Positions 489 through 33,317 of a DNA stretch of 64,000 nt are shown here, piece by piece. Under the pieces are notes generated by a model. The model saw nothing but the letters and a program-made list of their open reading frames with translations. It was not told where the DNA came from and searched no databases. Numbering within the stretch: the first letter of the stretch is position 1; each line of letters opens with the position of its first letter. This DNA comes from Saccharicrinis aurantiacus (GTDB lineage: Bacteria; Bacteroidota; Bacteroidia; Bacteroidales; Marinilabiliaceae): NCBI RefSeq assembly GCF_001660705.2, contig NZ_LYBV02000001.1, positions 1 through 64,000 on the forward strand, in the 5' to 3' direction. The translations under genes were made by a program, and so were the position numbers.

Positions 489-547
489 GTGCTTTAAAAT
501 GGACTATTGAATCTTTATAATATTACTGCTTGAATAGTTCTTGTGTG

Positions 548-633
548 AGGGATTGAAGTGACATCCTTTGTGAGCCCATTATGGCGAAGCAAAGATATAA
601 CGCAAAGCCCGACCCGCAGGGGCACACCCAAAA
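548..633 (+). repeat. dispersed repeat, copy A (inverted copy at 23.4-23.6 kb)
   Basis: The block containing CATCCTTTGTGAGCCCATTA, TGGCGAAGCAAAGATATAA and AAAGCCCGACCCG recurs in reverse complement near 23438-23570. The far copy carries about 45 extra bases between GGGTCGGGCTTT and GGGTGTTCCCC. Elements with GGGTCGGGCTTT...ATATCTTTG cores are, from memory, common in Bacteroidota intergenic DNA. No open reading frame is involved. Confidence 0.7.
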
Positions 634-19776: not shown

Positions 19777-21492
19777 ATGGCAGAAGTAAAGAACAACGAA
19801 ATATTTCCAGAATGGAACCCCTCAGATGTCGAAGGCATCAAATCGCGAAGTAATTTCTTACGCGGTACACTCGAAGAAGGATTGGCGGATTTAGCCACCG
19901 GTTCTGTAAGTGAAGATGATACACAAATGATTAAGTTTCACGGTAGCTATCAGCAAACCGACAGAGATTTAGATGTGGAGCGTAAAGGGCAGAAGCTTGA
20001 GCCTTTATATAGTTTTATGATTAGAGTGCGTATTCCTGGAGGTTTGGCATCGGCCGATCAATGGATTGCATTTGATGAAATATCTAAAACACATGCTACT
20101 AGTAATACCTTAAAGTTAACTACGCGTCAGGCATTTCAATTTCATGGCATTATCAAACAAAAGCTTAAGCCAACTATGCAAGCCATTAACGAAACCTTAT
20201 TGGATTCAATTGCTGCTTGTGGCGATGTCAATCGTAATGTAATGTGTAGTACCAACGAAGCGTTATCGCCATTGGTACCTGCAGCCTATCAAATGAGTAA
20301 AGATATTAGTGAGCATTTATTGCCACGTACAACGGCATATCACGAAATTTGGTTGAATCAAAAGTTATTAGTGAATGGTAGAGTTGATGAAGAGCCTATT
20401 TACGGAAAGCTTTATTTACCACGTAAATTTAAAATTGCCATTGCAACACCTCCGTATAACGATACAGATATATTTTCAAACGATATTGGTTTAATAGCAA
20501 TTGGTAAAGACGATAAACTTACTGGTTTTAACGTAGTAATTGGCGGTGGTTTAGGAATGACTTTTACCGAAAAAGGAACTTATCCTCGCCTTGGCGATGT
20601 GGTTGGTTATGTACCTTACGAGAAGACGCTTGAAGTAGTTGAAGAAATTGTAAAGCTGCAACGCGACTATGGTAACCGTGAAAATCGCCGTAAGGCTCGT
20701 TTAAAGTATACCGTAGATCGTTTAGGACCCGATAATTTTAAAGGCCTGTTGCAAGATCGTTTGGGTTATTCTCTTGATGCGCCAAAACCATACAAATTCA
20801 AAAGCAATAGCGATGTATTAGGATGGAAAAAAGCCAAAAGTGGTAAGTGGTTTTTAGGTTTATATATTGAGCATGGTAGAGTAAAGGATACCGAGGATTA
20901 TAAACTAAAAACAGGATTACGTGCCATTGCCGAGCTAAAAAAATGTGACTTCCGTTTAACCGGAAATCAAGGTTTATTACTTGGTGCCATTAAAGATGAG
21001 GATAAAAAAGAAATTGAAGCCTTATTGAAAGAGTACAAAATATGGCCTAAGCCTAAAATGAGCGAAGCCCGTAAACATGCTTTAGCTTGTGTGGCCTTAA
21101 ATACCTGTACTATGGCTTTTGCCGAAGCAGAAAGATATCTGCCAAAGCTAATGGATAGAATAGAAGAAGTGTTGGCTGAAAGTAATTTAACCAACGACGA
21201 CTTATTAATAAGAATGACCGGATGTCCGAATGGTTGTGGTCGACCGTTCCTAGGAGAAATAGGATTTGTTGGGCGTTCAATGGGTAAATATAATATGTAT
21301 TTAGGAGCCGGTTTTACAGGCGATAGATTAAATACGCTTTACAAGGAAACCCTATCTGAGGAGCAAATTATTGAAGAGCTTCGAGTACTACTACCACGTT
21401 ATGCAAAAGAGCGTAATAAAGGAGAAAAGTTTGGTGATTTTGTGGGCCGTGTAGGTATAATTCAGCACGAGCCGGCTGTGAAAGTAATATAG
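19777..21492 (+). CDS. cysI: assimilatory sulfite reductase hemoprotein subunit
   Basis: A 571-residue siroheme/4Fe-4S enzyme that reduces sulfite to sulfide. The ferredoxin-like half-domain starts near residue 70 (FMIRVRIPGG, TTRQAFQFHG) and repeats near 350. The cluster ligands are in CVALNTC (CX5C) and CPNGCG (CX3C) near 430-490, the family's standard pairs. Siroheme-binding basic residues lie in NVMCSTN and the RKAR region. Length fits the NADPH-type beta subunit. It is followed by a long inverted repeat and then the first copy of the structured repeat family. Confidence 0.95.
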   Translation: MAEVKNNEIFPEWNPSDVEGIKSRSNFLRGTLEEGLADLATGSVSEDDTQMIKFHGSYQQTDRDLDVERKGQKLEPLYSFMIRVRIPGGLASADQWIAFDEISKTHATSNTLKLTTRQAFQFHGIIKQKLKPTMQAINETLLDSIAACGDVNRNVMCSTNEALSPLVPAAYQMSKDISEHLLPRTTAYHEIWLNQKLLVNGRVDEEPIYGKLYLPRKFKIAIATPPYNDTDIFSNDIGLIAIGKDDKLTGFNVVIGGGLGMTFTEKGTYPRLGDVVGYVPYEKTLEVVEEIVKLQRDYGNRENRRKARLKYTVDRLGPDNFKGLLQDRLGYSLDAPKPYKFKSNSDVLGWKKAKSGKWFLGLYIEHGRVKDTEDYKLKTGLRAIAELKKCDFRLTGNQGLLLGAIKDEDKKEIEALLKEYKIWPKPKMSEARKHALACVALNTCTMAFAEAERYLPKLMDRIEEVLAESNLTNDDLLIRMTGCPNGCGRPFLGEIGFVGRSMGKYNMYLGAGFTGDRLNTLYKETLSEEQIIEELRVLLPRYAKERNKGEKFGDFVGRVGIIQHEPAVKVI

Positions 21493-21497
21493 TGTTC

Positions 21498-21560
21498 AAT
21501 GATAGGTGTTGAGTTATAAATGTTAAACGTATATATAGTTTATCATTAAACACCTATCAC
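21498..21560 (+). terminator. long stem-loop after cysI
   Basis: GATAGGTGTT at 21501-21510 pairs with AACACCTATC at 21549-21558 across a 38-nt AT-rich loop. There is no T-run, so it is a stabilising stem or a weak terminator. Confidence 0.4.
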
Positions 21561-21581
21561 CATTAAGGCATCTCGGAGGCT

Positions 21582-21822
21582 GGCCTCTTTACAAAATGCT
21601 TTTGTTTTAGATAAAGCTTTAGTAAGACCGATAAGTTGAGAGCTTTGCTCGAAAATCAATCGGCCGCACTTAAGCTTTAAATAAATAAAAAAGCTTTTTG
21701 GAAAGCAGCCTTGAACTTCTTTGCTTCTGTTTCTTGTTTCAAGACATCGGGACCATTAAGAATTGAGTATTCTTAATTGTTTCAGCATAAGCCGGATTCG
21801 GGATGAAATCCCAATACATAAC
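21582..21822 (+). repeat. structured intergenic repeat family, copy 1
   Basis: First of five related elements. The outer helix is GGCctCTTTACAAAA with the complementary arm ending caGCC at 21710. The inner conserved core CTTTAGTAAGA holds helix CCGAT/ATCGG and hairpin GAGAGCTTTGCTC. Then come helix CTTGAA/TTCAAG, hairpin ATTAAGAAT...ATTCTTAAT, and a final hairpin GGGAT-GAA-ATCCC before CAATA. It lies between cysI and the DUF2061 gene on their coding strand. No ORF is involved. Confidence 0.75.
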
Positions 21823-21857
21823 ACTCATTATACAGTATCAATAGTCAAATCAACAGG

Positions 21858-22088
21858 ATGAAAGAAAAAAGATATAGAACCCTACTCAAAACTGTTTCGT
21901 GGCGAATAACAGGTACCATCGATACCTTTGTTATTTCATATTTAATAACAGGGCATATAGGTTTAGCTGCATCCATAAGTGGAGTAGAGGTTTTTACCAA
22001 AATGTTCCTATACTATTGGCACGAACGCCTTTGGAATGTTATTAAATACGGTAAAGAAAAACCAAAGCCGCCAGAGTATTATATATAA
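21858..22088 (+). CDS. DUF2061 family membrane protein
   Basis: A 76-residue protein with two hydrophobic segments (about residues 22-42 and 44-58). It carries the family motif KTVSWRITGTIDTFVISYLITG at its N-terminal half and YYWHERLWNVIKYG near the C-terminus. DUF2061 proteins are found in Bacteroidota beside or fused to sulfate-assimilation genes, which matches this position between the sulfite reductase and HemB-like genes. Biochemical function is unknown; a role in sulfur compound transport or siroheme enzyme support is only inference. It is flanked on both sides by members of the structured repeat family. Confidence 0.85.
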   Translation: MKEKRYRTLLKTVSWRITGTIDTFVISYLITGHIGLAASISGVEVFTKMFLYYWHERLWNVIKYGKEKPKPPEYYI

Positions 22089-22158
22089 GTGATATCAAGT
22101 ATCAAAATTTGCTATTAATGCAATGCATGATAGTAATAATTTGAGTGTCTCGTTTACA

Positions 22159-22242
22159 GGCCTTTTTAAAAGCAGGCTTTATTTTCTAAGCTTACTGTTG
22201 TTCATACGGCACAGTAAGTCGGGTTTTGGCTAAGTGCCAATA
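22159..22242 (+). repeat. structured intergenic repeat family, copy 5 (short form)
   Basis: A reduced member: the outer helix GGCcTTTTTAAAAGcaGGC is closed without the central domain. It is followed by hairpin CTTACTGT/ACAGTAAG and the family's final motif GTCGGGTT-TTGGC-taagt-GCCAA-TA. It lies between DUF2061 and the HemB-like gene. Confidence 0.55.
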
Positions 22243-22277
22243 AACACCCATTTTATTATCAATTAATACCCAACAGC

Positions 22278-23270
22278 ATGTTTAAACGATTCAGAAGTAC
22301 CAGGTTAAGTCCTGAAATAAGAGATAATCATGCCGATGTAGATTTACAAACGCGAGATTTAATATACCCCTACTTCCTAGTAAGTGGCGAGGCCCGTAAA
22401 GAAGCTGTACCTAGTATTGAAGGTGCATTTAAGTTTTCACTTGATTTATTGTTGCAAGACCTAGAAGGAACCATTGCCTCAGGCATTGATAAAATTCTTT
22501 TAAAAGGAATTGTCGATGATCGCGAAAAATCAAAAGATGCACGTGCAGCATTTAAGCACAATAATCTGATTGAATTAGCCGTAAAAAAAATAAAGGAAAC
22601 TTATCCATCCTTAATCGTAATTACCGATGTAGATTTAACACCCTATACCAGTCACGGACAAGGCGGTATTTTGCGCGGACTAACTGTTGATAACGATAAA
22701 ACCATTGAAATATTAGCAAAAATGGCCGAGAGTCATGCTCGTGCTGGTGCCGATTTTGTAGCACCATCAGCCATGATGGACGGACAAGTGCATGCCATCA
22801 AAACGCACCTTAAAAAACGCGGTTATCCCGATGTAAAAATAATGAGTTTTGCAGCCAAGTACGCATCTAATTATTACGGACCAGATAGAGGTATCGACGG
22901 TTTAAACCCTGCTGGGCGCGAGCAAAAAGCCTATCAGGTTGATTATCGCACCCGCTTGCAAGGACTCGATGAAGTTGCCACAGATCTCGATGAAGGGGCT
23001 GATTGGGTAGGTATCACCCCGGCGCAAACCTATTTAGATGTTATTGTGCGTTCGCGCATTAAATTTTCATCGGCACAAATTGTGGGCTATCAATCATCAG
23101 GCGAGTACATGTCTATTGTAAATGCCGCCAATCAAAATTTATTGGAGCAACAGCCCGCTATGATTGAGTCGCTCACTGCCATTAAGCGTGCCGGAGCCAA
23201 TTATATAGTTACCTATTTTGCCCCCGAAATGGCACAATATCTCAACGGAGATCCGTACTATGTAATATAG
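22278..23270 (+). CDS. divergent porphobilinogen synthase (HemB) homologue, probably altered active site
   Basis: A 330-residue TIM-barrel protein of the ALA dehydratase family. The family landmarks are present: VITDVDLTPYTSHGQGG (116-130), APSAMMDGQVHAI near 162, the first active-site lysine in FAAKYASNYYGPDR (Lys194), the YQxSGEY loop near 271 and VTYFAP near 311. However, the usual VKPAL segment with the Schiff-base lysine reads GITPAQ, so Thr247 replaces Lys. The cysteines of the usual CxCxYTSHGHC zinc site are all absent. It is therefore either a paralogue with a new role, perhaps linked to siroheme supply for the adjacent sulfite reductase, or inactive. The reading frame is intact and conserved, arguing against simple decay. 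Confidence 0.8.
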   Translation: MFKRFRSTRLSPEIRDNHADVDLQTRDLIYPYFLVSGEARKEAVPSIEGAFKFSLDLLLQDLEGTIASGIDKILLKGIVDDREKSKDARAAFKHNNLIELAVKKIKETYPSLIVITDVDLTPYTSHGQGGILRGLTVDNDKTIEILAKMAESHARAGADFVAPSAMMDGQVHAIKTHLKKRGYPDVKIMSFAAKYASNYYGPDRGIDGLNPAGREQKAYQVDYRTRLQGLDEVATDLDEGADWVGITPAQTYLDVIVRSRIKFSSAQIVGYQSSGEYMSIVNAANQNLLEQQPAMIESLTAIKRAGANYIVTYFAPEMAQYLNGDPYYVI

Positions 23271-23437
23271 TATACGGACATAAAATATAAAGAAGCAATT
23301 CCGATACCTGATGGGTTTTATAGCAGTAATGCTATTGAGTCTGTCGGGTATTTTCATTTTAAACCGCACAGCCCTCGTATCATTTCTTTTTAATTTGGAT
23401 TATGCAATAGATAGGCTAATGCATATTGCAGGTTTAA

Positions 23438-23570
23438 TGTTTGGGTGTTCCCCGCGCCATTAACAACCATAAAATAAAAACACTATTCAGGCTCGGGTCG
23501 GGCTTTACATTATATCTTTGCTTCGCCATAATGGGCTCACAAAGGATGCCATTCCAATCCCTAACACAGG
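23438..23570 (-). repeat. dispersed repeat, copy B
   Basis: Reverse complement of the element at 548-633: it shares GGGTCGGGCTTT, TTATATCTTTGCTTCGCCAT and AATGGGCTCACAAAGGATG. It has an extra AT-rich segment of about 45 bases between the GGGTGTTCCCC end and GGGTCGGG. Confidence 0.7.
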
Positions 23571-23676
23571 CCTGCGGTGTCATTCTGGTAAGGTTCGTAA
23601 TACAATGCTCGTAACAAACAAGAGGTCTATCAAATCTCAAAATAGTCTCCTAATTGCCAAACAAACAAAATTAGTC

Positions 23677-23904
23677 AATCTCGCATCAAGATACCCAATC
23701 TCGCATGCGAGATTCACCTTCCTTGATGCGAGATTGGGTATCATAGGTGCGAGATCGCCATACCGGCATGCGAGATTCATGAAATACCCCTGCGAGATTG
23801 GCTTCCTTCTATGCGAGATTCACCTCCGCCATAGCGAGATTGAACTTCCTTGATGCGAGATTGGGGTTCCCTGATACGAGATTCACCTCATAAGGTGCGA
23901 GATT
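23677..23904. repeat. 21-bp-phased TGCGAGATT repeat array, candidate partition site
   Basis: Twelve copies of a 10-bp core, consensus ATGCGAGATT. Two are inverted (23677-23686 and 23697-23706). Ten are direct, starting at 23705, 23726, 23747, 23768, 23790, 23811, 23832, 23853, 23874 and 23895, that is every 21 bp with a single 22. The second inverted copy and the first direct copy form the perfect 18-bp palindrome AATCTCGCATGCGAGATT. The 11-bp spacers are not conserved. Two turns of helix between cores puts every site on the same DNA face, as in iterons or plasmid centromeres. The parAB genes lie 450-2500 bp away. Confidence 0.85.
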
Positions 23905-23987
23905 GTACATTTTTCCCGTGTTTTGAAGGCTAACTTAGTATCGGATCTTTTATTTTTAGGGGTTTGTTTTTAAGCGTCACGCTATAT

Positions 23988-24249
23988 GGCCTCTTTACAA
24001 AAAGCTTTTGTTTTATCTAAAGCTTTAGTAAGATTGGCTAGCTGAGAGCTGTGCTCTCAGATCCGCCAATCGCACTTAAGCTTTAAATAAATAAGAAAGT
24101 TATTTGTAAAGTAGCCTTGAATTTCTTTGCTTCTGTTTCTTGCTTCAAGGTATCGGGACGATTAAGAATTGAGTATTCTTAATTGTTTCAGGATGAAGTC
24201 GGGCCTACCTGCAGGTAGGCAGGTTTGGGTTGAAAACCCAATACGTAAT
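23988..24249 (+). repeat. structured intergenic repeat family, copy 2
   Basis: Outer helix GGCctCTTTACAAA/TTTGTAAAGtaGCC is perfect. Inner helix GATTGGC/GCCAATC, hairpin GAGAGC-TGT-GCTCTC, helix CCTTGAA/TTCAAGG, hairpin ATTAAGAAT/ATTCTTAAT and final hairpin TGGGTT-GAA-AACCCA all form. The last hairpin is separated from its GTCGGG lead by an inserted palindrome (24204-24223). Confidence 0.75.
24204..24223. repeat. CCTACCTGCAGGTAGG palindrome inserted in copy 2
   Basis: A perfect 16-bp palindrome plus CAGG lies between GTCGGG and TTTGGG, which are adjacent in copies 3 and 5. It looks like a short nested insertion. Confidence 0.55.
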
Positions 24250-24314
24250 ATTATTTAGGACAATATTGGTTTTCCATTCGAATTTGATGTCTTGAAATAA
24301 GCTCTTGAGAAAGC

Positions 24315-24345
24315 CCCATGCGAGATTGTTGAAAAATCGCATGGG
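24315..24345 (-). terminator. parB-end hairpin containing an array core
   Basis: CCCATGCGA at 24315-24323 pairs perfectly with TCGCATGGG at 24337-24345, six bases past the parB stop. The left arm plus loop contains a further full ATGCGAGATT core (24318-24327). On the minus strand the loop holds a short T-run. It may be both terminator and ParB-related site. Confidence 0.55.
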
Positions 24346-24350
24346 AGACT

Positions 24351-25349
24351 TTATTCACTATCTTTTAAATCTTCCAGAGCCTTTAGGCGCTCTTGGTAAT
24401 AAGTTTTTAATTTAGAAATGGCTTCGGCACCACCTGATTTAATGATCTTTTCCGATTTTGAATTATCGGTTTTTGCATAGGTGTTAAACAGATCGAGCCA
24501 GCCCGAATTAGAACTGCTTTTTCTTTGGGTATTTAGCTTTTTATCATCGCTATCCTTGTCTTTCTGATTGCCTGAAAACAACTGTTTGATGATATCTTTT
24601 GCTTCAATATCCGATAAATCGGCCAATTCCATTATCGATTGCATTTGTATGCCAAACGAGTTTACTGAAAAATAATCGAGGCGCAAATCAATGGGCAGTT
24701 TGTTAATTCCTCTGTACAGTTTATGGTAGCGCATTATGGTTCGCTTGGTAATGCCAAACTCCGCCGCTAAATTCTCAGCCTCATTGGTATCTGATTTTTT
24801 GCCTTCGGTAATAATGCTGTTGTAAATATATCCTATATGGTAATAATAGCCCTGTTTGCTTAAGTTACGACGAGAAAGTTGTCGTCGCGACATGTAAATT
24901 TTCAGCTCATTAATGCTTTTTATATGCTTAATCTGATCCTTATCAAAAGGGAAATTCAGAATAAACTGTGGCGTAGCATCGCCCATTTCGTCGCTTAACT
25001 CACATATGGCCTTGTATCTATGGTGGCCATCAACAATAATGTAAAGAAGTTCTTCCGATTCCGGATTTTGCCATAAAAGAATGGGTTCGCGCACGCCATT
25101 CTCCTTAATATCTAGCTTAAGTGCATTATATTCCTCGGTTTGTAGTGGAGTAATATGGCTGTTGAGCTCTTCGTTAATGGTAATGCTTTGGCGAATAGAT
25201 GCATGTACCGAGGCGTTGGCCGGATTTTCGGCTAGCTTTTGGTTGGCGTCGTTAAAGTTTGTTGGCGATTTAAAACCATTGTCCTTTTTCTTTCCTTTGG
25301 CAGCGGATTTATCTGTTGGCTTATCGTTTTTTGATCCTATTCGTCCCAT
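24351..25349 (-). CDS. ParB-like partition protein
   Basis: A 332-residue basic protein. After a Lys-rich N-terminal 30 residues comes the ParB N-terminal (ParB/Srx) domain, about residues 58-150: HITPLQTEEYNALKLDIKENGVREPILLW, then YIIVDGHHRYKAI. The box usually read as GERR is DGHHRYKA here. A helix-turn-helix-type segment follows (about 170-215, with LAAEFGITKRTIMRYHKLYRG). The C-terminus is charged and probably coiled. It starts 4 nt after the parA stop, so the two form an operon. It most likely binds the 21-bp repeat array downstream (inference). Confidence 0.85.
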   Translation of the reverse strand: MGRIGSKNDKPTDKSAAKGKKKDNGFKSPTNFNDANQKLAENPANASVHASIRQSITINEELNSHITPLQTEEYNALKLDIKENGVREPILLWQNPESEELLYIIVDGHHRYKAICELSDEMGDATPQFILNFPFDKDQIKHIKSINELKIYMSRRQLSRRNLSKQGYYYHIGYIYNSIITEGKKSDTNEAENLAAEFGITKRTIMRYHKLYRGINKLPIDLRLDYFSVNSFGIQMQSIMELADLSDIEAKDIIKQLFSGNQKDKDSDDKKLNTQRKSSSNSGWLDLFNTYAKTDNSKSEKIIKSGGAEAISKLKTYYQERLKALEDLKDSE

Positions 25350-25353
25350 GGTA

Positions 25354-26373
25354 TTACAATAATTCTTTAATTATCGATTCAATTTCTTTTCGCGATTCAT
25401 TGGCTTCATGATCATCGTACAATGTTTTCATTCGCTGAACACTTTTAGGTACTTGAGTACGCGATGAGAATTTTGTTTCTAAAACTCTAATATCAGTAAT
25501 GTGTTCTCTTACGTAGGCCATGTTGGTTTTGTGCACCATGGTGTTTGCTTTTACCAAGGTGAATAATAAACCCTCCAACGAAAGTGTGCCTTGTTTTACC
25601 GACGATTGTAAATTTATGAATTTTATCAGGTTTACAATCCCCTGTACGGCCGACTTCTCGGGCTGTACTGGTATCAGCACGCTGTCGCTCGCTAAAATGG
25701 CGTTGGTAACCAAAATATTCATGGCCGGGGGGTTGTCAATCAGCACAAAATCATACTCTCCACTTACCTTTTTTAATACCTGATCGAGTCTGAATGAGCC
25801 AACGGCACCCATTGAAGTGAGTTCATTTTCAAGGTTTTGTAACAGTAGGGTAGAAGGGATGATATGAAAATCGAGTTTTTTTCGTCCGCCCACCAAAGCA
25901 TCGTATCTACACTCTAAAGGGTCTACATAACGAGGGTTGTCCTCCAACAGCATACAGTTGTATAATTCAACATCTGAATCTTGTTTGTGGTATAATTCTT
26001 CACCCTCTTCATCGGTGTGCGAATAAGTACCTAATATATCCGTTAAACTTCCCTGGGGATCATTATCAATTAATAAAACCTTGTAACCACGCTCAGCCAA
26101 TCCACGACCAATATTTGCAGTGAGTGTTGTTTTTGATACACCGCCCTTATTGTTCACAATAGAAATTACTTTAGCACCTTCTTGTGGTTCAAAACCATAT
26201 TTTTTTAAGATGCTTAGGATGCTTTCAAGTGATTCGGCTTTTATCTTTTTCACCCTACCGTGCATTAAATAGGATAGATTGCGATCGGTAATTCCTGCTT
26301 CTTTCTCCAAACCTGAGATACTTAAAGACGGATTATTGCGTAGAAAGATTCTTATTTGATCAGAAATATTCAT
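25354..26373 (-). CDS. ParA family ATPase with N-terminal HTH (plasmid type Ia-like)
   Basis: A 339-residue partition ATPase. Residues 1-60 form a helix-turn-helix-like domain (LSISGLEKEAGITDRNLSYL). The deviant Walker A motif NNKGGVSKTT spans about 74-83, with signature lysine Lys76. Walker A' LLIDNDPQGSLT is near 104 and Walker B VLIDNPPA near 205. An N-terminal DNA-binding domain is the mark of plasmid P1/F-type ParA, which represses its own operon, rather than of chromosomal Soj. Two inverted repeats upstream are candidate operators. parB follows after 4 nt. Confidence 0.9.
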   Translation of the reverse strand: MNISDQIRIFLRNNPSLSISGLEKEAGITDRNLSYLMHGRVKKIKAESLESILSILKKYGFEPQEGAKVISIVNNKGGVSKTTLTANIGRGLAERGYKVLLIDNDPQGSLTDILGTYSHTDEEGEELYHKQDSDVELYNCMLLEDNPRYVDPLECRYDALVGGRKKLDFHIIPSTLLLQNLENELTSMGAVGSFRLDQVLKKVSGEYDFVLIDNPPAMNILVTNAILASDSVLIPVQPEKSAVQGIVNLIKFINLQSSVKQGTLSLEGLLFTLVKANTMVHKTNMAYVREHITDIRVLETKFSSRTQVPKSVQRMKTLYDDHEANESRKEIESIIKELL

Positions 26374-26391
26374 GAGATAAATATGATTAAA

Positions 26392-26407
26392 GTGACAATT
26401 GTGTCAC
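26392..26407. promoter_or_regulatory. candidate ParA operator 1
   Basis: GTGACA-ATTG-TGTCAC, perfect 6-bp arms, 19 bp upstream of the parA start codon. Confidence 0.45.
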
Positions 26408-26452
26408 CTTACGGTTTAATTTCTCACAATATTAATACATAATTACCTATAA

Positions 26453-26466
26453 TCACAATGTTGTGA
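26453..26466. promoter_or_regulatory. candidate ParA operator 2
   Basis: TCACAA-TG-TTGTGA, perfect 6-bp arms sharing the TCACAA half-site seen again as CTCACAA near 26433 and 26535. The rest of the 379-bp divergent gap to the AraC gene (26374-26752) shows no gene. Confidence 0.4.
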
Positions 26467-26752
26467 TGCATTAAATTGCCCTGTATTACTGTTTTATTTG
26501 ATGTAGGTGCTTTTTTTGTAGTTAAAATGTGCCATATCTCACAAAATATTGCAAGATGACTCATTCGCGTATACTAAATGTTCAGATGGATGGTTAATCT
26601 CGATGGTTATTTTTTTCATTATTACCACACGCTTTTAATGTAGGCTAGTATATCCTTAAGCGTTATTGAGTATTATTATCTTGTATAATCAATATATATT
26701 CTATATTTTGACACGCCTTGAACCTCACCTCCATATATGGGACTAATGATTT

Positions 26753-27628
26753 ATGAAAAACACGAATATACCTAAACATCAGTTTAAATATAGCTTGAAG
26801 CGGGTTGATGGATTCGATATCAATTCATTATCTAAAGTTGAGGAACTTAGAGGCGAGTCGTTATATGAGCCGCATACAATGGGGTTTTATATTCTCATTC
26901 ATGCCAAAAAAGCAAGTGGGATTCTTTCCATCGATTTTAAACAAATTGTATTGCGCGATAATATAATTATCCCGGTAGCTCTTGGGCAGGTAATACAATA
27001 CGATAGAAATGTTGTGATGAAAGGGGATGTTATAAAATTCACCTCTGATTTTTTGTTAAAAGAGAAGGTCAACCTGTGTTATCTCTATGGTTCTATTTTG
27101 CTAAATCCTCATGTATCCTCACCTGTTTTTGCAGTAACTAAAACCATTAAACAACAAGTAAAAAGTATTATAAAAGCATTTGATAAGAAATCCAACTCTT
27201 TTCAATACGAAGAGCTCTTGCGTTGTCACCTGAAAATTTTGATTATTAATTTAGAATCCAAAAATTTGGACGAGGTTAATGATGACGTAGAATCAGATAT
27301 ATTTGAAGATTGCTATTTTTATGAGTTGTTAAACAAGCGTATCAGTTACCGTTTAAAAGTGGTTGATATAGCGGATGAGTTAAAAATTACACCCAAAAAA
27401 TTAAATCGCCTCTTAAAAAAGAAGACCGGAAGAACCACAAAAAGTTTTATAGATGAACGCCTGATATTAGAGATAAAACGTTTATTGGTTCACTCAGATA
27501 TGACCATAAAAGAGATTGCCTATCAGCTTCATTTTGATGAGGTTTGCAATATGTCTAACTATTTTAAGCGACATACATCCATCAGTCCTCTTCAATTTAG
27601 AAACGAATCAAATAGTGTTTTTTTATAA
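26753..27628 (+). CDS. AraC family transcriptional regulator
   Basis: A 291-residue regulator. The N-terminal part (to about 150) is a cupin-like sensor with no close match that I recognise. The C-terminal AraC domain (about 190-287) has both helix-turn-helix units: VVDIADELKITPKKLNRLLKK and MTIKEIAYQLHFDEVCNMSN, with the closing YFKRHTSISPLQFR. It is divergent from parA and directly ahead of the Tat-exported oxidoreductase gene (84 nt), which it may control. The ligand is unknown. Confidence 0.87.
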   Translation: MKNTNIPKHQFKYSLKRVDGFDINSLSKVEELRGESLYEPHTMGFYILIHAKKASGILSIDFKQIVLRDNIIIPVALGQVIQYDRNVVMKGDVIKFTSDFLLKEKVNLCYLYGSILLNPHVSSPVFAVTKTIKQQVKSIIKAFDKKSNSFQYEELLRCHLKILIINLESKNLDEVNDDVESDIFEDCYFYELLNKRISYRLKVVDIADELKITPKKLNRLLKKKTGRTTKSFIDERLILEIKRLLVHSDMTIKEIAYQLHFDEVCNMSNYFKRHTSISPLQFRNESNSVFL

Positions 27629-27712
27629 GCAATTGGCATTTTTTTATAAATACCTATCCTTATTCTTTAGTCATATTTGGAGCTATTAAACAAAACACAT
27701 CTGATTAAGGTT

Positions 27713-29071
27713 ATGAAAAAAGGTAATGGAACATCAAGAAGGCAGTTCTTAAAAATTGGTGCCTTAGGTTTAGGCGGACTAGTTATTAGCGAACGTTCTT
27801 ATAAATATTTTAAACGAAGCAATGTAAAAGCTAAAATCGTTATTGTAGGCGGTGGAGCTGCAGGTATTACAATGGCCGCTTATTTGAGCGAAATGATTCA
27901 CGATGAGGATATCACCATAATTGAACCCAATGTAAAACACCATTACCAACCCGGGTATACAATGATTGCTGGAGGCGTTTTTGATGCGGATGATGTGGTA
28001 AAAGATACCAAGTCCTTATTACCTCGCAATGTAAAGTGGATTCAGGATTCGGTAAAAGAATTAAATCCTGAAAACAACTCCTTAACCACCAAAAAATCAG
28101 GCGTAGTTGATTACGATTACATGGTGTTAGTGCCTGGCGGACAATTGAATTTTGATTTAATTGAAGGCATTTCACGTAAGGAATTAGGCAAGGGGAACGC
28201 GCATTGTATATACGATTTTAATGGTGCACAAAAGTGTTATGAAGCCATTACTAAGTTACCTCAGAAAAAGGATGCACAGCTTGTATTTGCAGATACTTAT
28301 ACCAAAATTAAGTGTGGTGGTGCTCCTAAAAAGATTGCTTTCATGACCGAAGATTATTTGCGTAATGAGAAGGCACGTGATGGAAAGCAGGTTGATTTTT
28401 ATACCAATAGTGGTAGTTTGTTTAAACCTGCTGTTTTTGGCGATAGGTTAGAAGAGTTGTTTGAGCAGAAAGAAATTAAACCGCATTTTCAACATCGCTT
28501 GGTATCGATAGATACCTATGCTAAAAAAGCAGTGTTTGAAAAATTACCAGCTCCTACATTAACGGCCACTCCTTTTGATGCCAACTACGAAAAAGTGAAT
28601 CTCGATTACGATTTCTTACATTTTGTACCACCAATGAGTGCGCCTGATTTTATAAAAAAATCGGATGTAGTAGTTAAACAAGGCGACCTAAAACATGGTG
28701 GCTGGGTTGACGTGGATAAGTATACAATGATTCATAATAGATATTCTAATATTGTATCGTTGGGTGATGTTTCGTCGTTACCAACTAGTAAAACGGGTGC
28801 TGCCATTCGCATACAGGCACCAATTGCTGCAAAAAATTTAATTGCCATTATGGAAGGCAAAACACCAACTGAGAAATACAATGGATATACTGCATGCCCT
28901 ATTGTTACTGAATACGGAAAAGTATTGATGTGTGAGTTTGGGTACGATAAGGAAGTGATGCCAAGTTTTTCTATGTTAGATCCGGGTGTTGATAGAAGTA
29001 TGTGGTGGATGCTGAAAAAGCATGGTTTAAAACCAATGTACTACCACGGAATGCTAACAGGCCTAATGTAA
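27713..29071 (+). CDS. Tat-exported sulfide:quinone oxidoreductase-like flavoprotein
   Basis: A FAD/NAD(P)-binding enzyme of 452 residues. The ATG at 27713 (an upstream in-frame TTG at 27677 is not preferred) exposes a twin-arginine signal, SRRQFLKIGALGLGGLVI, with Arg9-Arg10. The FAD Rossmann motif is KIVIVGGGAAGITMAAYLSE near residue 43. Cysteines typical of sulfide:quinone reductase are present in TKIKCGGAPKKI near 202 and TACPIVTEYGKVLMCEF near 400. The closest families are SQR and flavocytochrome c sulfide dehydrogenase. Export by Tat means oxidation outside the cytoplasm, probably of sulfide or polysulfide (inference), next to an AraC regulator. Confidence 0.82.
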   Translation: MKKGNGTSRRQFLKIGALGLGGLVISERSYKYFKRSNVKAKIVIVGGGAAGITMAAYLSEMIHDEDITIIEPNVKHHYQPGYTMIAGGVFDADDVVKDTKSLLPRNVKWIQDSVKELNPENNSLTTKKSGVVDYDYMVLVPGGQLNFDLIEGISRKELGKGNAHCIYDFNGAQKCYEAITKLPQKKDAQLVFADTYTKIKCGGAPKKIAFMTEDYLRNEKARDGKQVDFYTNSGSLFKPAVFGDRLEELFEQKEIKPHFQHRLVSIDTYAKKAVFEKLPAPTLTATPFDANYEKVNLDYDFLHFVPPMSAPDFIKKSDVVVKQGDLKHGGWVDVDKYTMIHNRYSNIVSLGDVSSLPTSKTGAAIRIQAPIAAKNLIAIMEGKTPTEKYNGYTACPIVTEYGKVLMCEFGYDKEVMPSFSMLDPGVDRSMWWMLKKHGLKPMYYHGMLTGLM

Positions 29072-29083
29072 AATAGATATAGC

Positions 29084-29107
29084 TAAGGTGACATTAAAGT
29101 CACCTTA
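29084..29107 (+). terminator. stem-loop after the SQR-like gene
   Basis: TAAGGTGAC-ATTAAA-GTCACCTTA, perfect 9-bp stem, followed by a T-rich stretch. Confidence 0.7.
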
Positions 29108-29120
29108 TTCACTTTCTTTA

Positions 29121-29144
29121 AACCTTCCAACCTTCCAACCTTCC
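29121..29144. repeat. short tandem repeat AACCTTCC x3
   Basis: Three perfect 8-bp units in the 330-nt gap before the response regulator. The remainder of the gap (29145-29255) shows no gene. Confidence 0.6.
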
Positions 29145-29255
29145 CATATTTTTAAAGAACAACAGGTGTTTCATAGTGCTGCCTAAATGATGGTGGTCAT
29201 CCATAATTACACCTAGGCGTTTTCCTGCTTTTCAAGAACCATCTTCGCATTTTAA

Positions 29256-29293
29256 TTCCGTGATAATTCTGTGATACTTATATCATACCTTTA
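29256..29293 (+). promoter_or_regulatory. OmpR-type direct-repeat operator and -7 element of the response regulator gene
   Basis: A 25-bp block (29256-29280) holds two CGTGATA/TGTGATA half-sites 11 bp apart, TTCCGTGATAAT then GTGATACTTA. 22 of its 25 bases recur at 32350-32374. A -7-like TACCTTTA starts exactly 30 bp after the block start, as at the other site. This is the expected layout for an OmpR-family activator replacing the -33 element. Confidence 0.65.
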
Positions 29294-29401
29294 CAAAAAT
29301 GGGATATGTTATCTGTTTTTAAGGACATAAATACTTTGGATTAAACCTTTTTATCATAAATGAGGTTTGGTATTAAGTAGCTTATCAATAAACTCAGCTC
29401 T

Positions 29402-30106
29402 ATGACAAAAGTATTATTAGTAGAAGACGATGAAAACATAACGGATTTGTTGAGCATCCACCTAAGTGATTTAGATTGTTCCACCGAAATTGCCAACGAT
29501 GGTAAACTAGGGTTTGATATGGCCATGGAGCATCATTATAATTTAATTGTGCTTGATGTTATGTTGCCTGGAATGAATGGAATTCAAGTCTGCCAAAAAC
29601 TGCGAGCCTTGGATAACCATACCCCAATATTAATGCTTACGGCTAAGTCGGAAGAAATTGATTTGGTATTGGGTTTAGAGTCGGGGGCCGATGATTATTT
29701 AACCAAGCCCTTTGGTATCCGCGAATTTATTGCACGTGTTAAAAGCATCTTGCGCAGGCAAGAGGTAAACAAGCATGAAACCGAAAGTAAAGAAAGTACG
29801 CATCATCAGTTTGAGGGATTGGTGATTGACGAACTCAAACATCGTGTTACACTTAATAGTGAACGAATAGAACTTACCCCAAAGGAATTTGATTTGTTGG
29901 TGCTGCTTTGTAAAAACCCCGGGCGAAGTTACGATAGAGATCAGCTGCTGAAAATAATATGGGGATACGAGTTTAATGGATACGAACATACGGTTAACTC
30001 GCACATTAACAGGTTGCGTGCCAAAATTGAACCCGATATTACCAATCCTAAGTACATATTAACCACTTGGGGTGTAGGTTACCGATTTAATGATGATATA
30101 GATTAG
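29402..30106 (+). CDS. OmpR-family response regulator
   Basis: A 234-residue two-component regulator. The receiver domain (1-120) has the acidic pocket VEDD at 8-10, the phospho-acceptor Asp52 in IVLDVMLPGMNG, and Lys in DDYLTKPF. The winged-helix output domain (about 135-232) has LTPKEFDLLVLLCKNPGR and HTVNSHINRLRAKIEPD. Its partner kinase gene lies 349 nt downstream, separated by copy 3 of the structured repeat. The 11-bp-spaced direct repeats upstream suggest self-regulation, and the same element precedes the lipoprotein gene at 32421. Confidence 0.93.
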   Translation: MTKVLLVEDDENITDLLSIHLSDLDCSTEIANDGKLGFDMAMEHHYNLIVLDVMLPGMNGIQVCQKLRALDNHTPILMLTAKSEEIDLVLGLESGADDYLTKPFGIREFIARVKSILRRQEVNKHETESKESTHHQFEGLVIDELKHRVTLNSERIELTPKEFDLLVLLCKNPGRSYDRDQLLKIIWGYEFNGYEHTVNSHINRLRAKIEPDITNPKYILTTWGVGYRFNDDID

Positions 30107-30177
30107 ATGTTAGATGAATAGGTTTTAGATTGTTAGTGATTTATTATAAAGGGGTTTTAAAAGGTGCTAGTTTGACC

Positions 30178-30381
30178 GGCCTCTTTTCAAAAGGTTATCG
30201 TTTTATCTAAAGCTTTAGTAAGACCAGAAAGTTGAGAGCTTCGCTCGAAAATCGTCTGGCCGCACTCAAGGTTTAGGTAAATAAGAAAGCCTTTTGAAAA
30301 GTAGCCTTGATTTTTTTTGCTTCTATTTTTTGCATCAAGGCAAAAAATGAAGTCGGGTTTGGGCAGACAGCCCAATACGAT
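30178..30381 (+). repeat. structured intergenic repeat family, copy 3
   Basis: Outer helix GGCctCTTTTCAAAAGG/CCTTTTGAAAAGtaGCC is perfect. Inner helix CCAGA/TCTGG, hairpin GAGAGC-TTC-GCTC, helix CCTTGAT/ATCAAGG and final hairpin TGGGC-AGACA-GCCCA all form, each with bases different from copies 1 and 2 but still paired. It lacks the ATTAAGAAT hairpin. It sits between the response regulator and kinase genes on their coding strand. Confidence 0.75.
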
Positions 30382-30455
30382 ATTGTTATTTATGATGCTA
30401 TGGTCTAGATCTATTGTTTTAATATGTTCATTTTATTACTTAAGAAGAAAATCTC

Positions 30456-31931
30456 ATGGGAATAATAAACTTCAGAAAAAGCTTATACTGGCGCTTGTCG
30501 CTATCCTTTTTATTGGTGCTTTTGCTATTGGCAATTTCGTACATAGTAATTGTTACTTATGCCACCGATAAATACTATAACGAAACCACACAAAGGCTAA
30601 ATGCTGAGGTGGCTGATTATTTGGTAAAAGAATCTCCACCCTTTAAAAATGGGGAAGTTGATAAGGAATCACTGGGTGTGATTATGCATTCTATGATGGC
30701 TGTAAACCCTGGTATAGAGGTTTATTTGGTGAGTCCTGATGGCGAAATATTATCCTTTGTGGTGCTTGATAAAAAAGTGAAATTGAGTAGAGTAAATACT
30801 GCACCCATTAAAAGTTTTATAGGCAGCAAAGGGCAACAATATGTATTGGGCGATGATCCGCGTAACCCAGGTGAGGAAACAATTTTCTCGGCCACTGAAG
30901 TACATCAGGATGGTCTGTTTTTAGGATATGTATATATAGTATTAGCCAGCGAAAAGTATGAAACTACACATGCTTTGGTATCCAATAGTTATTGGATTAA
31001 GTTGGGTGTAAATTCTTTTCTGTTAACTCTTATAGCTGCTTTTACCATTGGTTTAATTTTAATATGGGTGCTTACCCGTAACCTTCGGGTGATTATACAA
31101 ACGGTAAAGCAGTTTGCTGATGGCGATTTACATGCGCGCATTCCTGTGAGTAATAAACAAAATGAATTGTCGGTGTTATCAACCAATTTTAACGATATGG
31201 CTGATACCATCCTTAAAAATATTGATGAGCTTAAGCAAGTAGATAGTTTACGAAGGGAATTAATAGCCAATGTATCGCACGATTTACGTAATCCGCTGGC
31301 CATTATTCAGGGCTACATTGAAACACTGTTGATGAAATCGGATAGCTTGAGTAAGGAGGATACCATTAAATACATGAAGGTGATTCATAAAAGCAGCGAA
31401 AAATTAACGCGTTTGGTGGCCGATTTATTTGAATTATCGAAGCTTGAAGCCCGACAAGTGCAATTGCAAAAAGAGCCGTTCTTTGTGCAAGAATTAATTA
31501 GTGATGCTTGTTTAAAATCGAAGTTATTAACCGATAATAAAAACATAAGTGTTGAATCAGTAATTAGTGAAGGTATACCAATGGCCTATGGCGATTTGGC
31601 TATGATGGATCGGGTTATTCAGAACTTGCTCGATAATGCCATTAAGTATACGCCAGCCGATGGTCATATTAAGTTGTTGGTTGATAAAGTGGATGGAGGA
31701 ATAAATGTGAGCGTTCAGAATACTGGTGAAGGTATATCCGAAAAAGATTTGCCTAATATTTTTAATCGCTACTATAAGGTGGATAAAGAAAAAGAAGGCA
31801 TTGAGGGAACAGGTCTTGGATTAGCTATAGTAAAAAATATTCTAGAAGTGCATCAATCGCAAATTAAGGTGGAGAGTACAGTTAATGAAATAACCAATTT
31901 CCACTTTACACTGCCTGCTTATAGTGCTTAA
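30456..31931 (+). CDS. sensor histidine kinase (HAMP, HisKA, HATPase)
   Basis: A 491-residue membrane kinase. TM1 is about residues 12-34, a 150-residue extracytoplasmic sensor follows, TM2 is about 178-202, and a HAMP domain runs to about 255 (NLRVIIQTVKQFADGDLHAR). The HisKA motif is ELIANVSHDLRNPLAIIQGY near residue 270, with the phosphorylatable His in VSHDLR. ATP-binding motifs are NLLDNAIKYTP near 385 and GTGLGLAIVKNI near 455. It pairs with the OmpR-type regulator upstream. A strong terminator follows. Confidence 0.93.
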   Translation: MGIINFRKSLYWRLSLSFLLVLLLLAISYIVIVTYATDKYYNETTQRLNAEVADYLVKESPPFKNGEVDKESLGVIMHSMMAVNPGIEVYLVSPDGEILSFVVLDKKVKLSRVNTAPIKSFIGSKGQQYVLGDDPRNPGEETIFSATEVHQDGLFLGYVYIVLASEKYETTHALVSNSYWIKLGVNSFLLTLIAAFTIGLILIWVLTRNLRVIIQTVKQFADGDLHARIPVSNKQNELSVLSTNFNDMADTILKNIDELKQVDSLRRELIANVSHDLRNPLAIIQGYIETLLMKSDSLSKEDTIKYMKVIHKSSEKLTRLVADLFELSKLEARQVQLQKEPFFVQELISDACLKSKLLTDNKNISVESVISEGIPMAYGDLAMMDRVIQNLLDNAIKYTPADGHIKLLVDKVDGGINVSVQNTGEGISEKDLPNIFNRYYKVDKEKEGIEGTGLGLAIVKNILEVHQSQIKVESTVNEITNFHFTLPAYSA

Positions 31932-31949
31932 AAAAATAAAGGATTTGTA

Positions 31950-31988
31950 AACCCGATAGTATTCGCAGTAAAACTATCGGGTTTTTTG
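31950..31988 (+). terminator. terminator after the histidine kinase
   Basis: AACCCGATAGT pairs with ACTATCGGGTT and is followed by six T residues. Confidence 0.85.
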
Positions 31989-32072
31989 TGTTTAAAAAGG
32001 GCTATGACTAAAAATCTATTATAAATGTGAATTAAGGGTTGAAATAGTTTATTTAGAGCGCCTTGCTTTGTT

Positions 32073-32278
32073 GGCCTCATTTTTAAATATCTTTTGTTTG
32101 TGTTGAAACTTTAGTAAGACTGGGAAGCTGAGAGCTTTGCTCGAAGATCGCCCAGCCGCACTTAAGTTTTAGCATAATAAAAAGCTATTTAAAAAGCAGT
32201 CTTGATGTTTTTTCCTTAGTTTTTGTCATCAAGAACAAAAAGTAAGTCAGGGTTTAAGGGATGAAGTCCCTTAAAGTA
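32073..32278 (+). repeat. structured intergenic repeat family, copy 4
   Basis: The most diverged full copy. The outer helix is TTTTTAAATATCTTTT with AAAAGCTATTTAAAAA; inner helix CTGGG/CCCAG; hairpin GAGAGC-TTT-GCTC; helix TCTTGATG/CATCAAGA; final hairpin TAAGGGA-TGAA-GTCCCTTA. It lies downstream of the kinase terminator and before the lipoprotein promoter. Confidence 0.7.
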
Positions 32279-32349
32279 TACTAAAAAAGTTCAACTCTTG
32301 ATTTTAGTTATAAACTAAAATTAATTGCCACTTTTTTAAAACTTTATAC

Positions 32350-32387
32350 TTCCGTGATAATATCGTGATACTTAATCAGGAAATTTG
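32350..32387 (+). promoter_or_regulatory. OmpR-type direct-repeat operator and -7 element of the lipoprotein gene
   Basis: Block 32350-32374 matches 29256-29280 at 22 of 25 bases, with TTCCGTGATAAT then CGTGATACTTA. GAAATTTG (one mismatch to TAnnTTTG) starts exactly 30 bp after the block start, the same spacing as at the response regulator gene. Confidence 0.65.
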
Positions 32388-32420
32388 AATCAAAATAATA
32401 ACTCAATAAAAACTTTAATT

Positions 32421-33317
32421 ATGAAACGATTTAGATTTCCTTTAGCAGTTCTTTTTTTATCACTATTTATTATTTCATGTGATAACGATGATGACAATGA
32501 TGATGTTATGCTTGATAATATGCTAACACTCGATATTAAATACTTAGAAAACCTAGGCGCCGATGAGGTGTATGAGGGTTGGATTGTAGTTGATGGTAAG
32601 CCAGTAAGTACAGGTACCTTTACTGTTGATGATGATGGTAAACTATCAAAAACAACTTTTACCGTTGATGAAATGTACTTAATAGCAGCTACTGATTTTG
32701 TACTATCTATTGAACCAGCTAACGATGATGATCCGGCACCGAGTGCAATAAAAATACTAGGTGGTAGTTTTTCAGAGTCGTCAGCAGATGTGAGTGTTAG
32801 CCATGGTGCAGCTTTAGGTAGTACTTTTAAAAGCGCAGCTGGTAAATACATATTAGCAACACCAACAACAAACTCAATGGAAGATGAATTGAGCGGTGTT
32901 TGGTTCCTAAGCTTAGAGAGTGGTGCACCTGCAGTAGGTTTAAATTTACCTGAACTACCAAGTGGATGGGCCTACGAAGGTTGGGCTGTAATTGATGGAA
33001 TGCCAGTGAGCACAGGTACTTTTACCGAGGTTGATATGGCTGATAATGCAGCACCTTACAGCGGTACTGATAACCTAGGGCCAAGTTTCCCGGGAGAAGA
33101 TTTTATTCAAAATGCTCCTGATGGTTTAACATTCCCTACTGATTTATCAGGAACCACAGTGGTGATCTCCATTGAGCCAAGTCCGGATAATAGCTCAGCT
33201 CCATTTATGTTTAAGCCTTTAGTAGCACCTGTAATGGAGGACGCAATGGATCATAAAACTTATGACTTCATGAATAAAGTAGCAGAGACTTTCCCAATGG
33301 GAACAGTAACGAGATAG
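32421..33317 (+). CDS. lipoprotein with two anti-sigma-K-like repeats
   Basis: A 298-residue surface or periplasmic lipoprotein. The ATG at 32421 (preferred over an in-frame TTG at 32385) gives a signal with lipobox FIISC followed by an Asp-rich tether. Two similar domains follow. Repeat 1 reads YEGWIVVDGKPVSTGTFTVD and later VLSIEPANDDDPAP; repeat 2 reads YEGWAVIDGMPVSTGTFTEV and later VISIEPSPDNSSAP. This YEGW...SIEP pattern resembles the C-terminal domain of RskA-type anti-sigma factors, here detached from any sigma-binding part. Its promoter shares the two-component operator, so it is probably a target of that system. Ligand and role are unknown. Confidence 0.78.
   Translation: MKRFRFPLAVLFLSLFIISCDNDDDNDDVMLDNMLTLDIKYLENLGADEVYEGWIVVDGKPVSTGTFTVDDDGKLSKTTFTVDEMYLIAATDFVLSIEPANDDDPAPSAIKILGGSFSESSADVSVSHGAALGSTFKSAAGKYILATPTTNSMEDELSGVWFLSLESGAPAVGLNLPELPSGWAYEGWAVIDGMPVSTGTFTEVDMADNAAPYSGTDNLGPSFPGEDFIQNAPDGLTFPTDLSGTTVVISIEPSPDNSSAPFMFKPLVAPVMEDAMDHKTYDFMNKVAETFPMGTVTR

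Follow-up and report, generated by a model that had tools for sequence, protein, structure and literature searches.

A probable MITE-like element family of Saccharicrinis aurantiacus and other Bacteroidota with a putative structured RNA as its conserved heart

The first 64,000 nt of the Saccharicrinis aurantiacus contig NZ_LYBV02000001.1 (the window) contain an intergenic element, present on the + strand as four full copies (starting at 21582, 23988, 30178 and 32073; copies 1, 3, 4 and 5) and one relic (22159; copy 2). With a probability of about 0.6, it belongs to a family of non-autonomous transposable elements similar to miniature inverted-repeat transposable elements (MITEs), which carries a structured RNA as its conserved heart. 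Comparison of the copies showed that base changes in both strands of the stems have preserved the predicted interior fold across genera, and the mobility of the family is supported by inverted-repeat ends and 9-bp target duplications recognised in the sequence. MITEs are usually regarded as deletion relics with an unimportant interior. Here, the conserved RNA fold outlasts the recognisable ends while still changing in matched pairs, so that a role in the transcript or in transposition can be tested for the cargo of a coding-free transposon. A protected RNA fold would be unusual for an element coding for no protein.

Read 5' to 3', the element is composed of an inverted-repeat end, a spacer (often containing TTTAAGCGCC in S. 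aurantiacus), hairpin 1, a short strand (S1), a U-rich stretch, hairpin 2 (S2), often a last hairpin, and the other end. Where ends were recognised, they set its length at ~180 to 480 bp. In hairpin 1 (GGCCTC...GCAGCC, ~128 nt), AGTAAGA and CGCACTT are conserved within the internal loops, and the 6-8 nt loop of hairpin 2 is complementary to S1 (CTTGAT and variants), which lies just after hairpin 1. These two segments are predicted to pair as a pseudoknot. A preliminary description of the window had taken the CTTGAA/TTCAAG pairing for a third helix; the pairing is real, being only half of the pseudoknot, whose partner helix S2 had been missed. The coordinates, core and helices then listed are indeed present in the sequence, with the correction that the inner-helix pairs assigned to copies 1-4 are those of copies 1, 3, 4 and 5. 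The idea that hairpin 1 always contains an A.C mismatch was rejected, as folding finds this mismatch in 95/119 copies, which makes it common and not invariant.

The family is larger than had been described. A covariance model of the first hairpin (R1), built from 31 copies that include those of the window and their genome siblings, matches copies 1, 3, 4 and 5 with 128-143 bits and occurs at 42 distinct places, on both strands, in the 5.88-Mb S. aurantiacus genome (77 matches in total, the remaining 35 being opposite-strand readings of these hairpins). The four copies of the window, contained within 10.6 kb, form a local cluster, although the family extends far beyond the 11-kb stretch previously noted. 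A similar cluster was observed in Draconibacterium, where 4/5 copies lie on one strand within 23 kb (L175, L174; G785:C45, 181488-204487). Matches to R1 were found in 9/9 other genomes, all of them picked for an already known locus, with 1 to 49 matches each: Puteibacter 49, Carboxylicivirga 27, Labilibacter 15 (including 3 opposite-strand readings), G238 6, Draconibacterium 5, G176 and G053 one each, and two metagenome-assembled genomes (MAGs) 1 and 2. Among 247 genomes of the order, with 14 candidates per genome scored, at least four including S. aurantiacus have matches. With R1, a covariance model is available for this repeat, which occupies dozens of intergenic regions in certain Bacteroidota.

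Other searches relied on the core sequence. An exact core scan of 84,980 species, one genome per species, gave 16 matches (Labilibacter 6, Puteibacter 5, Carboxylicivirga 2, Draconibacterium 1, one Crocinitomicaceae MAG 1 and one Flavobacteriales MAG 1), and a strict core pattern (up to 2 mismatches) gave none in 394 other genomes of the phylum or in 392 other genomes of the order. The strict pattern undercounts the family, because it misses the R1-matched genomes G238, G176 and G053, and the spread looks patchy but undercounted. Exact patterns had no match in viral contigs, nor did one copy compared by blastn with plasmids and phages. The element has no match in the window at the Rfam 15 gathering score, and eight element loci had none at E up to 1. 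No description of it was found in the parts of an open-access library that were searched, and the earlier view that the element is undescribed holds against these two sources.

The preliminary description had offered a mobile family as one possibility, which is supported by the putative ends and target duplications. Counting direct repeats only by their length gave no clear separation from control and was superseded by a joint scan for an end plus a duplication, scored against mispaired controls. In Labilibacter, target duplications of 9/9 bases in 7/12 copies and of 8/9 in 2/12 stand beside the end CACATCTGTCCTAA, at one fixed distance from the core, and each of these nine outscores all 12 mispaired controls. 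In S. aurantiacus, the duplication score of L092 and L102 (9/9) and L095 (8/9) was reached by 0/42 mispaired controls, that of L097 (8/9) lies slightly above the best control, and L037 has an exact 9-bp duplication (9/9, by eye). Carboxylicivirga contributes a 9/9 duplication (L160) and, outside the 9-bp scan, duplications of ~10 bp seen by eye in L155 and L159.

The ends themselves are of several kinds. Type A ends (CAATAGCGTCCTAAAT) were recognised in S. aurantiacus on both sides of 7 copies (L003 and L010 at chance level) and on one side of 9, and type B ends (GTGAATCAAGGGTTGAA) in 6 copies, which include copy 5 of the window and the weak L029. Type A and Labilibacter ends have GTCCTAAAT in common, the Carboxylicivirga end is ATGCTTAGTCTTTATTATACCAG, and L160 has still another, meaning that one fold is flanked by at least three unlike end types. 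Genome-wide searches with the type A end pattern in S. aurantiacus and with the Labilibacter pattern in Labilibacter returned, as judged by eye, known copies, degraded or cut ends (L040, L184, L195, L196), a variant (L192) and solo elements. The latter, seen by eye in two genera (L037, L183), keep both ends and lack hairpin 1, apparently lost at short direct repeats; L037 contains no open reading frame (ORF) of 60 aa or more. The variant L192 (G000:C8, near 5448) has the shared 3' end, a different first hairpin and a CAGTC/GACTG pseudoknot, which suggests a wider superfamily.

The constraint on the interior was studied in 119 copies, gathered from S. aurantiacus (42), Puteibacter (25 of 49), Carboxylicivirga (25 of 27), Labilibacter (12), G238 (6), Draconibacterium (5), the Flavobacteriales MAG (2), the Crocinitomicaceae MAG (1) and G176 (1). 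An R1 alignment of the relatives was also used, in which 97 rows were reduced to 78 by removal of 12 opposite-strand and 7 identical ones; it includes the G053 copy, located at a contig end and outside the 119-copy set. In these 78 rows, 0.889 of the stem cells are paired, against a mean of 0.671 and a maximum of 0.687 in shuffles that ignore relatedness, and 751 cells changed on both sides compare with 245 in the shuffles (maximum 288). A second hairpin was found in 118/119 copies by a permissive search, some of these being inserted palindromes, and its loop has a complementarity of at least 6 to an upstream strand, in most copies but not all S1, in 85/118 copies, against 14% of shuffled loops. 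An undisturbed S2 directly 3' of hairpin 1 is present in 92/119 copies (68 distinct); in the distinct ones, selected by their pairing, 0.979 of S2 is paired versus 0.722 after shuffling.

Matched changes of this kind could also arise without any selection on RNA, and the main rival explanation is a plain MITE whose interior is only a DNA palindrome, the arms being matched by template switching (quasi-palindrome correction). The end repeats and target duplications already make the element a transposon, and between close copies matched double changes are common (11 in 12 pairs from S. aurantiacus, 24 in 20 pairs from the relatives), as expected of a correction accomplished in one event; many single changes, in addition, break pairs. 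However, such correction should not distinguish G-U pairs from A-C mismatches, and G-U was favoured 52:4 in a sequence-only alignment of the S. aurantiacus copies, 135:43 in the alignment of the relatives and 55:14 in S2 under a symmetric criterion. The rival also fits poorly with the better conservation of the unpaired loops (0.82) than of the stems (0.68) in the relatives' alignment, with the sense bias of the S. aurantiacus copies described below, and with the covariation of the pseudoknot strand and loop, which appear as CTTGAT/ATCAAG, CTTGAA/TTCAAG, CTTGAC/GTCAAG and, in a few copies, CAGTC/GACTG. A plain MITE is thus judged unlikely, at perhaps one chance in five.

Because G-U is common, A-C is much rarer and the S. 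aurantiacus copies are mostly sense, the selected molecule is probably the RNA of the + strand, which would be made by read-through of the upstream gene. At sites between tandem genes, as placed by a simple ORF call, 70 copies of all genomes are sense and 18 antisense, the ratio being 30:4 in S. aurantiacus (29:4 with shorter ORFs), 15:4 in Carboxylicivirga, 7:3 in Labilibacter, 5:0 in G238, 3:1 in Draconibacterium and 3:0 in the MAGs. Moreover, the sense strand is the one that folds better in 109/119 copies over 200 nt, and in 92/119 for hairpin 1 alone.

Several results weigh against a MITE-like family with a selected RNA at its heart. Regarding the RNA, the covariation exceeds shuffles blind to relatedness, and both the fitting of the relatives' alignment to R1 and the choice of S2 hairpins by pairing lean to structure. 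About one third of the margin by which hairpin 1 folds better in sense comes from composition, the antisense strand is the better fold for hairpin 1 of copy 1, the two strands fold nearly equally in that of copy 3, and Puteibacter has no sense bias (7:6). Single stem changes between close copies broke more pairs than they kept (26 broken and 14 kept in S. aurantiacus, 49 and 28 in the relatives), so that any constraint on an individual copy is loose at best. Regarding mobility, the duplication score was reached in only 3/42 S. aurantiacus and 1/25 Carboxylicivirga copies, and in none of those from Puteibacter (0/25), G238 (0/6, with one control reaching it) and Draconibacterium (0/5). No ends are recognisable in 20/42 S. 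aurantiacus copies, and the probable duplication of copy 5 (7/9) scores 20.2 against 22.2 for the best mispaired control, being alone not above chance. Finally, no transposase partner was found among the families searched in the S. aurantiacus genome, Y1_Tnp (4 matches, one containing internal stops) and DDE_Tnp_1 (2 matches); the type A, type B, Labilibacter and Carboxylicivirga ends match these six loci only with 4 mismatches or more.

In the proposed model, mobility depends on a transposase acting in trans, which is an assumption. The RNA would act in cis on the host transcript, protecting it, processing it or letting the polymerase pass, and insertion between cistrons would thereby be tolerated and kept. 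Such cis action on the transcript where the element lands is put forward tentatively. Of the regulatory RNA envisaged in the preliminary description, an RNA-level constraint is supported (covariation, G-U over A-C, sense bias of the S. aurantiacus copies), the regulatory role itself being putative. It is also conceivable, again with considerable reserve, that inheritance is of the RNA fold rather than of the ends. The element would then be a cis-acting mobile structured RNA that transposons of several types, differing in their inverted repeats, have carried and that has spread across Bacteroidota.

Alternatively, the RNA may serve the transposon instead of the host transcript, as a cofactor or control RNA of the putative transposase, hence being conserved while the ends change. 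The occurrence of one fold with at least three unlike ends (type A/Labilibacter, type B, Carboxylicivirga, L160) and the lack of a host pattern in Puteibacter would agree with this, but the solo derivatives retain both ends without hairpin 1, L037 even with its 9/9 duplication, and although the loss may postdate insertion, such a role seems improbable. An immobile class of host cis-regulatory RNA, riboswitch-like and merely multicopy, would explain the strong conserved fold and the position of most S. aurantiacus copies between co-directional genes, but it is very hard to reconcile with the unrelated genes neighbouring the window copies, the target duplications and the patchy spread. REP/REPIN elements mobilised by a Y1 (RAYT) transposase, brought to mind by the four Y1_Tnp matches and by the REPIN label in the preliminary description, can be practically dismissed, since the coordinates place no copy closer than 50 kb to these matches, the repeats in the one Y1 region inspected (L033) are different, and inverted-repeat ends with 9-bp duplications are unexpected for Y1 elements. 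At L033 (G000:C21), a Y1_Tnp gene is flanked by several copies of that other palindromic repeat (CCGCACGTGTCCCCACGTGTGGT / CCACACGAGAGGACTCGTGCGG) in a RAYT-REP-like arrangement.

The features of the window copies are collected in Table 1. Of the five copies first reported, the four full ones are matched by R1, and 22159-22242 is a relic without the core, which R1 fails to match with the E threshold raised to 10. In some copies, additional palindromes interrupt S2; copies 1 and 3 share an identical 23-bp one within the second arm of this helix, which in copy 1 splits the S2' arm, and hairpins appear to insert into hairpins. Some copies of Labilibacter and Carboxylicivirga have, by eye, similar modules at this position, and other palindromes (with CCTGCCGGCAGGCAGG) lie near that site in other copies. 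The 5' end of copy 3 (L025) and both inverted-repeat ends of copy 4 (L001) are unrecognisable, while the inverted repeat of copy 5 pairs 32030-32051 with 32282-32303.

Table 1. Features of the element copies within the window
Feature	Position	Strand	Basis
Copy 1, hairpin 1 (long, conserved internal loops)	21582..21709	+	R1 143.4 bits; fold z -4.4
Copy 1, pseudoknot: S1 CTTGAA 21710-21715 with loop partner TTCAAG 21738-21743	21710..21743	+	sequence
Copy 1, inserted palindrome module TTAAGAATTGAGTATTCTTAATT	21756..21778	+	sequence comparison
Copy 2, relic: collapsed hairpin 1, second hairpin remaining	22159..22242	+	sequence; fold z -2.7
Copy 3, hairpin 1	23988..24115	+	R1 143.1 bits; fold z -8.9
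Copy 3, pseudoknot: S1 CCTTGAA 24115-24121 with TTCAAGG 24144-24150	24115..24150	+	sequence, family pattern
Copy 3, inserted palindrome module	24162..24184	+	identical to that of copy 1
Copy 3, type A 3' end (..ATTTAGGACAATATTG)	24246..24268	+	pattern match, 1 mismatch
Copy 4, hairpin 1	30178..30305	+	R1 135.6 bits; fold z -7.9
Copy 4, pseudoknot: S1 CCTTGAT 30305-30311 with ATCAAGG 30334-30340; S2 30320-30333 with 30340-30352	30305..30352	+	sequence, family counts
Copy 4, last hairpin TTGGGC...GCCCAA	30359..30375	+	sequence, fold
Copy 5, probable target duplication, left (ATTATAAAT)	32018..32026	+	7/9 bases match right copy
Copy 5, left end, type B (GTGAATTAAGGGTTGAA)	32027..32043	+	1 mismatch to type B; usual distance from core
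Copy 5, hairpin 1	32074..32200	+	R1 128.4 bits; fold z -6.6
Copy 5, pseudoknot: S1 TCTTGATG 32200-32207 with CATCAAGA 32227-32234	32200..32246	+	sequence, family counts
Copy 5, S2 CTTAGTTTTTGT/ACAAAAAGTAAG	32215-32226/32235-32246	+	sequence, family counts
Copy 5, last hairpin TTTAAGGGA...TCCCTTAAA	32253..32275	+	sequence, fold
Copy 5, right end, type B (TTCAACTCTTGATTTTA)	32290..32306	+	3 mismatches to type B
Copy 5, probable target duplication, right (GTTATAAAC)	32307..32315	+	paired with left copy

By Pfam assignment, copy 1 is flanked by NIR_SIR and DUF2061 genes, and copy 4 lies between a response regulator (Response_reg+Trans_reg_C) and a histidine kinase (HisKA+HATPase_c) gene. Copy 2 is found between the DUF2061 and ALAD genes, copy 3 after ALAD and before an opposite-strand gene without Pfam match, and copy 5 between the kinase gene and an RskA_C gene. 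No ORF of 100 aa or more occurs inside any window copy, and of 15 terminator-like sites (G+C-rich stem plus T run) in 21400-32500 none falls within the five elements. For the response regulator/kinase pair, the best identity in the family genomes searched was 42%, and no empty site was demonstrated. Two other repeats were observed nearby: a separate inverted repeat (TGATAGGTGTT.../...AACACCTATCA) at 21500-21559, between the NIR_SIR gene and copy 1, and an imperfect tandem array with a 21-bp unit (TGCGAGATTGA...) at 23791-23883, upstream of copy 3, which is also followed by single units of a similar kind.

Bacterial MITEs, such as BrickBuilt of P. gingivalis (PMC4596501; reviewed in PMC10969869), are likewise short, intergenic and non-coding, with inverted-repeat ends, target duplications and a stable predicted fold. 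The BrickBuilt ends (GAGACCTTTGCA) are unlike those of the element, in which conservation across genera, with matched changes and a predicted pseudoknot, concerns one RNA fold instead of the ends, features not reported for those elements in the parts considered. Flavo-1 RNA (RF01705; PMC2864571, PMC9723704) is, like the element, a structured Bacteroidetes motif without known function. The Rfam search placed no Flavo-1 match on the element, RF01705 matching the window only at 532-618 (+) and at 23492-23569 (-), upstream of copy 3, with 44 bits each; by eye, a Flavo-1-like stretch adjoins a truncated element in L195. In F. psychrophilum, Flavo-1 is indistinctly sense or antisense to transcripts according to the portion of PMC9723704 used, in contrast to the S. 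aurantiacus copies of the element. The GUCCY-hairpin (PMC2864571) and candidates from the human microbiome (PMC8040213) are, in the sections drawn on, Bacteroidetes motifs outside Rfam, some of them palindromic; the element may be identical with one of them. ERIC and Correia elements (as covered in part of PMC3049150) are palindromic repeats in operons with reported transcript cleavage sites; their host groups differ, and they are likened to the element by description. The same source, as far as it was used, presents the BOX, RUP and SPRITE repeats of Streptococcus pneumoniae as dispersed, thought to be mobile and endowed with strong RNA folds, BOX being modular, transcribed with operons and thought to affect co-transcribed genes. 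By description, the element is set apart from these repeats by its other host group, a covariation that spans genera, its several end types and the sense lean of the S. aurantiacus copies.

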